Shown: positions 1-54,033 of the stretch, in pieces
Numbering within the stretch: the first letter of the stretch is position 1
Layout: every line of letters starts with the position of its first letter
Assembly (NCBI RefSeq): GCF_029892785.1
Contig: NZ_JARXXA010000019.1
Coordinates: 1-64,000, forward strand
DNA length: 64,000 nucleotides
Source: Parabacteroides sp. PH5-46
GTDB taxonomy: Bacteria > Bacteroidota > Bacteroidia > Bacteroidales > Tannerellaceae
Reading direction: 5' to 3'
The notes under the pieces: generated by a model
Database searches by the model: none
What the model was told of the DNA's origin: nothing
Seen by the model: the letters and a program-made list of their open reading frames with translations, nothing else
Program-made: the position numbers and the translations under genes

Positions 1-80
1 AATAAATACAAACAAAAAATTGCCTATATCATTTTACGGATACAGACAATTTTATTAAGTGAAAAACTTAAAGCCGCTTT

Positions 81-137
81 TTAAGGGGTGACTATATAAA
101 GTCCTGCTATTGTATATAGTATCTTTTTCATATCCAT
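81..137 (-). pseudogene. Possible truncated start of a secreted protein gene
   Basis: An 18-codon reading frame begins with ATG directly after the stop codon of the DUF3575 gene (138-140). It reads MDMKKILYTIAGLYIVTP and then meets TAA at 81-83. The N-terminus (Lys-Lys followed by a hydrophobic run) resembles the start of a signal peptide, and the position fits the next gene of an operon. I see no continuing frame in the remaining 80 bases. It may be a broken gene, a gene interrupted by a sequencing error, or chance. Confidence 0.25.
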
Positions 138-725
138 TTATTTGATGATGTAGATTAAGGATATTCCCGCTTTGGTAGGTCCAAAATAGTTTTTGGTAAA
201 ATCGCCGATTTTCTCGGCGCATTTCTCACAAGGATACTTGGCATGATCGAGGTAGGCGTACCCTACGCCGACAGTTGCTTCTATGCTCCAGCGCTTATTG
301 AGGATCCACTGGTAGCCGTAGGAGATACCTGCGCCGTAGAGGTAACCCTCGTAGCGGTTTTCATTGAGGCCGAACATTTTCAGTCCTCCGACATTGTAGC
401 CTGCCACATGCGCATGCAAGCCCATGAAGTGACCCATGAAGCGCTGGCAGAACCAGTAACGAGCTTCAGGCTGTATGGCCCAATGCTTGAGTTTGCGGTT
501 CTTGGAGAACTCCCAGGGGTTGTAATTTACAGGTAGTTCCAGCGTCCACTTAGGAGCTAGCCCGATTTCGAGGCCGAGGTTCAGCGTCGTTGTCGCATCA
601 TACAGTAAGTTCGACTTCAGGGCCACATCCTGTGATTTAGTAAAGGGTGAGAAAAATGTCAGCATGGCAAACGCCACGACAGTCTTTTTTATCCATCCAA
701 CGGTTATACAATTCTCTGTTTTCAT
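138..725 (-). CDS. DUF3575 family secreted protein, fimbrial-locus type
   Basis: The protein has about 195 residues with an N-terminal signal-like segment (VVAFAMLTFFSPF) followed by a DUF3575-type body rich in aromatic residues (KSNLLYDATTTLNLGLEIGL, ARYWF, GAGISYGYQW). DUF3575 proteins look like small outer-membrane beta-barrels and in Bacteroidales are common in Mfa/FimA-like fimbriae operons; that is family knowledge. The frame also opens with TTG at 728, but the ATG at 725 is the likelier start. Only about 50 bp separate this start from the left inverted site of the putative invertible segment, so its promoter should lie inside or beyond that segment. The rest of the operon would lie left of the window. 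The exact function is unknown. Confidence 0.75.
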   Translation of the reverse strand: MKTENCITVGWIKKTVVAFAMLTFFSPFTKSQDVALKSNLLYDATTTLNLGLEIGLAPKWTLELPVNYNPWEFSKNRKLKHWAIQPEARYWFCQRFMGHFMGLHAHVAGYNVGGLKMFGLNENRYEGYLYGAGISYGYQWILNKRWSIEATVGVGYAYLDHAKYPCEKCAEKIGDFTKNYFGPTKAGISLIYIIK

Positions 726-775: not shown

Positions 776-796
776 CTATCACTTAGTGAGTGACAG
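776..796 (+). repeat. Left inverted repeat of putative invertible segment
   Basis: 21-bp imperfect palindrome with outer arms CTATCACT and AGTGACAG around the 5-bp centre TAGTG. It matches the reverse complement of 1423-1443 at 18 of 21 positions. Confidence 0.65.
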
Positions 797-1310
797 CAGA
801 CTGGATTTATGAAAATGTAAGTGTCTAGATCTATAGTAATTGCAAAACTTATTTACATAATTTCATAAAAAGGTGAAACATTTTTACAAACAGGAGGCGC
901 TGGAAAGTGCTGTAAAATCCGTATCAGACTGTAATAAAAAAGCCCGTTTGGAAGATTGAAGGAATAGGCTTTAAAAGAGTGGAATTTGTAAACATTTTAT
1001 AAACAATCTAATAATCTATCAGTTAGATTTGTTTTTCAACGATTATTGTCTTGGCTGGAGAAGGAGAGAGGTATTTCTATTGAAAACGCATTAGGTTTAG
1101 TAAACCCACATAAAAGCCAAAGACAAGAGCGTTTAATGGATTCGAATCCGAATAAAGTCCGTTCTTTTACCGCATTTTTAGGTCTTTGCCCGCTACATGG
1201 GGCTTGTAAGTGATATGTCTTCGATGCCGATATGGCATAGATAATCCGACCGGACAATTTTTGTTTGTCTGCCCGGCTTCCGGTGTATATTTTCCAGCCT
1301 ATATTATATG

Positions 1311-1347
1311 TATATTCACAAATTAACTGATGATAATTGTGAATATA
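1311..1347. repeat. Perfect 11-bp inverted repeat inside the segment
   Basis: Arms TATATTCACAA (1311-1321) and TTGTGAATATA (1337-1347) are perfectly complementary around a 15-nt loop. There is no U-run typical of a terminator, so an operator for a regulator or an mRNA hairpin is more likely. It lies within the putative invertible segment and would flip with it. Confidence 0.5.
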
Positions 1348-1422
1348 TTGAGGGGAATTAAGTATTTCCGGCGAATTTAAATGGTGGATATTTGCAGAAA
1401 CTTACTGGTTTTTCTTTCTTTT

Positions 1423-1443
1423 CTGCCACTCGCTAAGTGACAG
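1423..1443 (-). repeat. Right inverted repeat of putative invertible segment
   Basis: 21-bp site with arms CTGCCACT and AGTGACAG around CGCTA. Read on the minus strand it gives the same arm-centre order as the left site, with centre TAGCG. It lies 102 bp downstream of the recombinase stop codon. Confidence 0.65.
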
Positions 1444-4759: not shown

Positions 4760-6339
4760 GGAAAATACTAACATCGCTCATTGCAATACTGGCCGTTACC
4801 AGTCTGGAAGCACAACAGGTACCTAAACTGGTTGTGTGTATTACGGTAGACCAGTTGCGGGGAGATTATGTCGAATATTTCTATAATACCTTTGGTGAAG
4901 GGGGATTTAAACGTCTGCTGAATGAGGGTCTTGTCTATAAGAATATTCGTTTTGAGTTTTCAAATATAGACCAGGCAACCGCTTTTGCTACGCTATTTAC
5001 AGGCTCTAATCCCTGTTTTAACGGTATATCCGGTGAAAAGGTTTACGACTTTAACCGAGAGCAGGAGAAGTCGGTTTTGCATGATGCTAATTACATCGGA
5101 AACTATACGCGGGATAACTATTCACCCAGAAAACTGTATGCTTCAACAATCGGCGATGAGTTAAAAATAGCCTCCAAAGGGCGGAGCGACGTATATGCTA
5201 TTGCTCCGGACGCGGAAAGTGCCATATTGTCAGCAGGGAATGCAGCGAATGGTGCCTTCTGGATTGACAATATAAACGGGAAATGGGCTACTACTACCTA
5301 TTATAAAGGCGTTCCCTGGTATATAGATCGCTACAATAACGGACAGGAATCTTTGCCGGTACGGCTGGATAAGCTGGTATGGACTCCTTCGCTAGCGCTC
5401 ACGAAGTTTGATGCATTCCCTTATATAACGGATGAAAGCTCTTATCGTTATACATTTAATGAGAATCAGAGAAATTGCTATCCCGATCTGAAAACCTCTC
5501 CTTTTGTAAATGCAGAGGTAAATAAACTGGCTTTTCAGTTTCTGGAATATGGCGGCTTTGGTTCGCGTTCATGTCCGGATATGCTCTCTGTTACCTATTA
5601 TGCGGGTAATTTTAACCGATTGAAGGATAGAGAGTATTCTCGTGAAATACAGGATACTTACTACCAACTGGATAAAGATATTGAGAAGCTACTGGACTTT
5701 ATCGACAAGAAGGTAGGCCTACGCAATACGCTTGTTGTATTTACCGGTTCGGGATATTACAAGAGCGTTGAAGATTATCCGGAAGGAGTTCAGTTGAACG
5801 GAGGCGATTTTTATCCGAAGCGTTGCCTGGCTTTGCTGAATATGTATCTGATGCAGATATACGGACAAAAGCAATGGGTGACAGGATATTATAACGGACA
5901 GATATTCTTGAACCGAAAAGTAATAGAGGACGAAAAACAGGCGCTGGAGAGTGTTCAGAATAAGGCTGCCGAATTTGTTGCCCAGTTTTCAGGTGTGCAG
6001 TCTGTCATTACGGATTGCGCCTTAAGGAATGGCGAATGGAATGAAGGAACGGCCAAGTTTCGTAACGGGACACACTATCTGGGACGGGGTGATTTGATTA
6101 TCGAATTGCAACCCGGCTGGCGGGTGAATAATGAGGTGCCCGGCGAAAAAGTAAAAATGGTACGTCACAATGCCGTTGTAACCCCTTTGATTTTTATGGG
6201 TAACGGCTTGAAGCCTAAACATATTTACCGTGAAGTAAAAGCAACGGAAGTGGCACCGTCTGTCACGCATATACTCAGGATTCGTCCGCCGAATGCTGCT
6301 ACAGAGCTACCGCTTTGGGAATTGAAAGTTGAAAACTAA
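4756..6339 (+). CDS. PafA-like phosphatase homologue, probably inactive
   Basis: The 527-residue exported protein (signal ending near LEAQQ) has the overall fold markers of Bacteroidota PafA-like alkaline phosphatases: [10 protein letters not shown] at the start, [14 protein letters not shown] in the middle, and [15 protein letters not shown] at the end. The metal and nucleophile motifs are degraded. Where active relatives have NTxTxPGHA, this protein has NIDQATAFA. The ADHG-type motif reads FTGSGYY, and the DYxGH motif reads YYAGNFN. Only Asp32 of the metal set is obvious. It is therefore probably a pseudoenzyme with a binding or structural role. It overlaps the DUF4105 gene by 4 nt and precedes secA by 68 bp. 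Loss of activity is inferred from motifs only. Confidence 0.8.
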
Positions 6340-53823: not shown

Positions 53824-53897
53824 AGCCTCTTGTCGGATTCGAACCAACGACCCCGAGATTACAAATCACGTGCTCTGGCCAACTGAGCTAAAGAGGC
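53824..53897 (-). tRNA. tRNA-Thr (anticodon TGT)
   Basis: The minus strand folds into a full cloverleaf: acceptor GCCTCTT/AAGAGGC, D stem GCTC/GAGC, anticodon stem CGTGA/TCTCG with loop TTTGTAA, and T arm GTTGG-TTCGAAT-CCGAC. The anticodon TGT reads ACA codons. One T-T mismatch occurs in the anticodon stem. CCA is not encoded. It lies 4 nt after the SRP RNA and shares its promoter. Confidence 0.95.
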
Positions 53898-53901
53898 AAG
53901 T

Positions 53902-53997
53902 GGGTAAGCTTACTACATCGCGCCGCTACAACCAAGTACCCTTGCTGCGGTCAAGCCCTGGGGGATTCCGAGGGAGCATGCCGTATAGGACTTACCC
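53902..53997 (-). ncRNA. ffs: Signal recognition particle RNA, small bacterial type
   Basis: On the minus strand a region of about 96 nt is closed by GGGTAAG and CTTACCC. It carries the SRP core CCAGGGCTTGACCGCAGCAA, followed by GGGTA, resembling the Ffh-binding hairpin with its AGCAG internal loop. The terminal loop appears to be TTGA-like rather than the common GGAA. Size and upstream promoter suit a 4.5S-type RNA that pairs with Ffh for membrane-protein targeting. The ends are estimated from the closing stem. Confidence 0.82.
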
Positions 53998-54002
53998 GGG
54001 CG

Positions 54003-54033
54003 CAAAGGTAGACATTTTTTGTTAGAATGCAAG
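54003..54033 (-). promoter_or_regulatory. Promoter of the SRP RNA-tRNA-Thr transcript
   Basis: Minus-strand -33 CTTG (54033-54030), 19 bp, then -7 box TACCTTTG (54010-54003), placing the start within a few bases of the SRP RNA 5' end at 53997. Confidence 0.7.

Follow-up and report, generated by a model that had tools for sequence, protein, structure and literature searches.

We analysed a stretch of 64,000 nucleotides from Parabacteroides sp. PH5-46, here called the window, which forms the start of contig C19 of a genome of 4.42 Mb in 39 contigs. Near the contig end a tyrosine recombinase gene and a DUF3575 gene lie on either side of a pair of inverted sites (Table 1). The sites were found as an earlier note on this DNA had described them: 21 bp each, matching at 18/21 positions in inverted orientation, enclosing 626 bp, and each an imperfect palindrome in its own right (16/21 and 14/21 self-match). 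The adjoining recombinase gene and the DUF3575 start 50 bp from the left site, both read by the note from the letters, were recovered with their Pfam domains. When the 820-bp intergenic stretch was shuffled with its dinucleotides preserved, 1 of 300 shuffles reached 18/21; by itself this repeat match is modest, and it is the comparison of six loci that is decisive. Further along the window, a tRNA gene adjoins a Bacteroidales small SRP RNA gene (53824-54004).

Table 1. Features at the start of the window; positions are those of the window.
Feature	Position	Strand	Remark
End of a repeated, IS-like element	1..98		The contig starts here; 13 further copies of this end in the genome
5' remnant of the DUF3868 gene	95..137	-	MDMKKILYTIAGLYI common to the paralogs, then the repeated element
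DUF3575 gene, first in the pilus operon	138..725	-	PF12099, 264.6 bits
Recombination site, DUF3575 side	776..796		CTATCACTTAGTGAGTGACAG
Segment end matching L014 6273-6344	777..848	+	The L014 stretch precedes an orphan araC on contig C4 and begins with a decayed site
Invertible segment, OFF orientation	797..1422		L010 has the segment reversed between collinear flanks
Block matching L014 6332-6418	931..1017	+	The L014 region lies directly upstream of the orphan araC; 76%, E 2.5e-12
Poorly conserved middle; araC position in relatives	1016..1247		Column identity 0.22-0.64
Promoter end of the segment	1325..1412	+	Aligns with L015 sequence that follows araC, 72% over 90 bp
Likely -7 box GATATTTG of the putative invertible promoter, pointing to the recombinase (OFF)	1387..1394	+	Identical in 6/6 copies
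Recombination site, recombinase side	1423..1443		Two substitutions relative to L009, L010 and L012, one of them central
-7 box TATATTTG of a putative fixed promoter, facing the segment	1470..1477	-	6/6 copies; 22/25 loci of the kind
Tyrosine recombinase gene, 416 aa	1546..2796	-	Phage_int_SAM_5 and Phage_integrase domains (Pfam)

Five sister loci were found in the same genome: L009 (contig C14), L010 (C10), L011 (a second copy on C19), L012 (C12) and L013 (C11). L009, L010 and L011 match 776-1443 over its full length, while L012 and L013 match both ends and not the middle. Gene order is the same in all six copies, namely recombinase, site, segment, site, DUF3575. In the direction from recombinase to DUF3575, L010 carries its segment in reverse relative to the other five, between collinear flanks; this segment aligns to that of L009 on the opposite strand with 89.7% identity over 629 bp. 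Both orientations of the segment exist among the paralogs of one genome (1/6 reversed), which bears out the main claim of the note, an invertible tyrosine-recombinase switch in front of a DUF3575 gene. Downstream in L011 we found the anchor and pilin genes of a type V (Mfa1/FimA-like) pilus operon, with an Mfa2 match of 160.6 bits and an Mfa1-family match of 101.6 bits, the latter below its cut-off of 130.

Identity between the copies was found to depend on the part compared (pairwise 82-92% for the recombinase, 68-90% for the segment and 87-97% for DUF3575; the DUF3575 of the window is 92-99% identical to those of the five paralogs). The pair L011/L013 is a mosaic, with 99% identity upstream, 71% in the segment and 98% in the right flank. 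Such differences by part between pairs suggest conversion between copies. A DNA search with the segment and its flanks in 123 family genomes returned the source genome itself and otherwise a single 28-bp match in each of two genomes.

The six loci also indicate where recombination would take place. In 6/6 loci one outer letter of the site reads A next to DUF3575 and G next to the recombinase, whatever the orientation of the segment, and the inner letters travel with the segment, again in 6/6. As the outer letter stays with the flank and the inner letters go with the segment, strand exchange would fall inside the site.

We then looked at promoter-like boxes in the alignment of the six copies, in which column identity was 0.74-0.92 at the segment ends versus 0.22-0.64 in the middle, and conservation over blocks of 30 columns was highest at 1337-1366, 867-896 and 1367-1396. 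The earlier note had pointed to a -7 box at 1024-1031. Its letters (TAGATTTG) are present, but the same position reads TAGGTTGA, TAGGTTGG, TATGTCGA, TAAATCTA and TAAATCTT in the five paralogs, and this lack of conservation speaks against a promoter there. At 1387, inside the block 1367-1396, 6/6 copies have GATATTTGCA; the box shares 7/8 letters (G for T) with TAnnTTTG, given as the Bacteroides -7 consensus in the available part of PMC4747536. It points to the recombinase in five copies and to DUF3575 in L010. If this box is a promoter, its direction would make five copies OFF and L010 ON. The OFF state predicted for the window copy thus still holds, now because the 1387 box points away from DUF3575. 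No enrichment of a -33 box at the usual distance was observed.

Relatives were collected with a recombinase alignment, taking the best 80 of 115 loci and 20 further stretches from family genomes; a single-protein recombinase query of the genome contigs gave no match. Among the 115 recombinase matches examined, 19 distinct loci (duplicates L151, L153, L156 and L162 left out) were found whose segment measures 1.0-1.3 kb and encloses an AraC-type gene. These loci come from Dysgonomonas (L025, L026, L101), a Dysgonamonadaceae genome (L027), Tannerellaceae genomes (L037, L042, L044, L048, L056, L067, L100), a record labelled Bacteroides sp. (L039), other family genomes (L149, L150, two loci in L157, L161, L166) and the source genome itself (L015). 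An AraC-type helix-turn-helix (Pfam) was detected in 7/7 inside-segment proteins scanned (L015, L025, L042, L056, L101, L149, L150). L166, with a weak repeat pair only, may lie outside the kind. In five loci (L044, L100, both of L157, L161) the araC gene is in two or three frame pieces and looks as if it were decaying in place. The gene points away from the operon in 17/19 loci and towards it in 2/19 (L015 and L101), so both orientations are met again among the relatives. In searches of an open-access library, judged by titles and the openings of abstracts, we recognised no report of an AraC-type gene inside an invertible segment, which does not prove novelty; a regulator gene inside such a switch appears to be a little-known design.

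A TAnnTTTG box behind araC, facing out of the segment at the end that corresponds to the 1387 box of the six copies, was found in 15 of the 19 araC-bearing loci, which are not independent of each other, and facing inward in 2/19, with 1.85 expected by shuffling; the full outward box is absent in L015, L037, L039 and L048. At the araC start inside the segment, a box facing araC was found in 1/19 (1.71 expected). A further box, fixed in the flank between recombinase and site and facing the segment, is present in 22/25 loci (the 19 araC-bearing loci and the six copies; absent in L025, L026 and L166), with 0/25 on the reverse strand. Among short switches of this recombinase family that lack araC and passed the filters, the flank box was found in 0/20 (0.66 expected), where 13 flanks are shorter than 80 bp and two loci (L135, L137) were measured at an inner repeat. 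From these positions, a single inversion may place araC under the fixed promoter and the pili under the internal one; this two-promoter arrangement is the simplest reading of the boxes. In L012, L013 and an orphan AraC locus of the source genome (L014), an internal TATATTTG faces the side of araC, which in these loci could therefore do without the fixed promoter.

The note had seen no credible gene between the two sites, and we recognised none: tblastn with two AraC proteins found nothing significant in any of the six segments (best E about 6), and a 73-aa frame at 1036-1257 falls in the least conserved part. The flanks of araC can nevertheless be traced. In the six copies, one segment end aligns with L015 sequence that follows araC (68-73% over 82-115 bp), and the opposite end aligns with sequence preceding the orphan AraC gene on contig C4 (L014 6426-7292). 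Against L014 6273-6344, the stretch 777-848 gave 69% in the window (E 0.004) and 73% in L009 (E 5.5e-8). The matching L014 stretches begin at a decayed site (15/19 letters) at 6273 and include a TATATTTG. These matches suggest that the six copies lost araC, kept both promoter ends and descend from the larger araC-bearing kind. Because the segment ends match the surroundings of these two araC genes, the orphan AraC on C4 or the L015 AraC may serve the six copies in trans.

The motif AAACATTTT..AAACA was found at 990, inside the 931-1017 match, with a second copy at 876, outside it. A candidate operator motif, AAACATTTTNNAAACA, occurs 7 times in exact form across the genome, six times at these loci. 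The seventh, the only copy outside them, is at 36289-36304 of contig C5. With at most one mismatch there were 20 matches versus 13 for a reversed control pattern, and for this reason the motif remains only a lead. A hairpin was also noted between the place of the lost araC and the promoter end, at 1248-1290 and in the paralogs (CCGGACAA..TTGTCCGG in L010). It is present without a T run, and we rejected an intrinsic terminator in the segment.

Taken together, it is likely that the locus is an invertible promoter segment for phase variation of an Mfa1/Mfa2-type pilus operon starting at DUF3575, with an araC-bearing ancestry, and that the window copy itself is probably worn out. The sites, the paralogs with both orientations among them, the interrupted operon and araC in relatives are seen directly, and recombinase activity, promoter function, ON/OFF expression and the stuck state of the window copy are what we infer from the sequence. 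Strand exchange within both sites, and with it the flip of the segment, would be the work of the adjacent tyrosine recombinase or, in trans, of one of its five paralogs. With the promoter end (GATATTTG, 1387) facing DUF3575 the operon would be ON, as in L010; with that end facing the recombinase, the orientation of the window copy, it would be OFF. In the larger kind the fixed promoter beside the recombinase would face into the segment and transcribe araC in the ON state only, a second promoter behind araC would face out to the pili in the ON state only, and in OFF neither araC nor pili would be read. The six copies of the source genome would have lost araC.

More tentatively, these loci from Tannerellaceae and Dysgonomonas relatives could make up a switch class of their own, in which a single inversion joins a fixed promoter to the araC inside the segment and, from within the segment, a second promoter to the pilus operon outside, so that regulator and target switch together. 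Six daughters would have lost araC and kept its upstream region, and either the orphan C4 AraC, freed from its decayed site and with a promoter of its own, or the L015 AraC would control the six in trans. We regard this wider proposal as possible but incline to doubt it.

The state of the window copy itself was judged from its sites and its operon. Site centres, though variable between loci, are equal within a locus in 22/23 readable loci (L150 and L166 were not readable by pattern). In the relatives this equality is partly built in, because they were found via near-perfect repeats; the five paralogs were found by homology and their equal centres are free of this bias. The window copy is the sole exception of the 23, with TAGTG at the centre of one site and TAGCG at its partner (1423-1443), where a second substitution lies outside the centre. 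Tyrosine recombinases require a matching overlap between sites, and with unequal centres the window copy should flip poorly. Its operon is not intact either: the DUF3868 frame ends after 18 codons, where the repeated element begins (homology to the paralogous DUF3868 genes begins at 93-113), and the contig ends. The 13 further copies of the element's end in the genome are 96-100% identical, and 13/13 lie at contig ends; the element (1-98) has no plasmid match and only weak matches in 2/59 other genomes searched. Differing centres and an interrupted DUF3868 gene both lead us to conclude that the window copy is probably worn out and flips poorly or not at all.

A window copy that still works in two states, with the centre mismatch tolerated and a recent interruption of the operon, is unlikely, given that its centres alone are unequal and that its second gene is broken off. 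What speaks for it is the recombinase. Residues R259, K285, H357, R360, H383 and Y392, which we take to be the catalytic residues R-K-H-R-H-Y, are invariant among the paralogs, and dN/dS is 0.11-0.15 between the window's recombinase and the paralogs and 0.06-0.13 among the paralogs, that is, at the upper end of the paralogs' range or slightly above it, with no clear decay. Five sister enzymes could also act in trans, the paralogs occur in both orientations, and a single centre mismatch might be tolerated. The window recombinase is intact and may still act elsewhere. We find it more doubtful still that the fixed promoter (1470-1477) is the sole promoter and the segment a valve that passes its transcripts in one orientation only. 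The fixed box is the better match to the consensus (TATATTTG, 6/6), and near 1248-1290 the hairpin has its best fold on the strand transcribed from this box in OFF, but a hairpin that lacks a T run and outward boxes in 15/19 loci, at the end turned to the operon in the ON state, both speak against a valve.

Exchange between loci, with the sites serving mainly for a shufflon-like swapping of operons or segments and not for local flipping, would account for the TAGTG centre on at least one site in four loci and for mosaic identities such as that of L011/L013. Ordinary gene conversion explains the mosaics too, however, the three centre types would insulate the loci from one another, and L010 shows a plain local inversion, which makes this explanation very improbable. 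A dead transposon-like element with the inverted repeats as its ends is hardly credible: the repeats do enclose a stretch with no recognised gene and a repeated element lies nearby, but they hold the same position between recombinase and operon in six loci, in both orientations, and other genera have the same arrangement with araC inside. An invertible promoter segment, probably worn out in the window copy, remains our preferred explanation.

Other switches were seen in the same genome. A second group consists of recombinase loci with sites like CCCTCACTTGGTAAGTGATGGGG (L134 on C4, L135 on C8, L136 on C5 and L137 on C3). Fib_succ_major or FimA-like domains were detected in the genes behind L134, L135 and L137, those scanned. 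At one segment end, a block of 105-113 bp is next to the recombinase in L134 and L136 and next to the operon in L135 and L137; judged by this block, two of the four segments lie in each orientation. Long inner inverted repeats occur within the segments of L134, L135 and L137. On contig C2, a further recombinase has palindromic inverted sites (TACCACCTCTTACTTAGAGGTGGTAC) directly behind it (L138 1894-2269).

What began as a single suspected switch would belong to a family with a readable history, including regulator-bearing switches, regulator-less copies, one frozen regulator and one worn-out copy. If the two-promoter wiring is true, regulator and target would be switched in one step, ON states could be sharper or longer-lived, and the effect of one flip could reach other loci. 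As the six switches are close relatives and each has an enzyme of its own, they lend themselves to testing whether the site centres keep loci insulated from one another.

Local promoter inversions in Bacteroides fragilis were reportedly described by Weinacht in 2004. Short araC-less DUF3575 switches in Alistipes (L061), Sanguibacteroides (L079), a Bacteroidaceae genome (L095) and L164 share the recombinase family and the target gene with the locus studied here; they differ in their lack of araC and in the 157-281 bp that separate the repeats (the 20 short switches with no fixed box include L061, L095 and L164; L079 fell outside that filter). Tyrosine-recombinase promoter inversions, pilus genes near invertons and gene-bearing invertible segments are known, as seen in the available parts of PMC12632263, PMC4747536, PMC11892184 and PMC5903667. 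A known gene-bearing invertible segment near surface genes likewise has a whole gene inside, but, in the portion of the source at hand, not an AraC-type regulator. For gut Bacteroidota, excerpts of PMC11892184 describe invertase genes that adjoin invertons and are oriented beyond reach of the inverton promoter, name the FimB/Mfa2 pilus gene family among genes predicted to change by invertons, and distinguish promoter-bearing from gene-intersecting types, with no mention in these excerpts of a whole regulator gene inside. In Bacteroides fragilis, the accessible text of PMC4747536 reports local tyrosine-recombinase promoter inversions (BF2766/tsr19), with one enzyme also acting on a distant site. 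As far as that text goes, the present locus is like BF2766/tsr19 in having a tyrosine recombinase beside the putative invertible promoter of a surface-structure operon and a candidate -7 box close to TAnnTTTG, and unlike it in its 626-bp segment, its extra fixed promoter-like box facing the segment and its araC-bearing ancestral kind.
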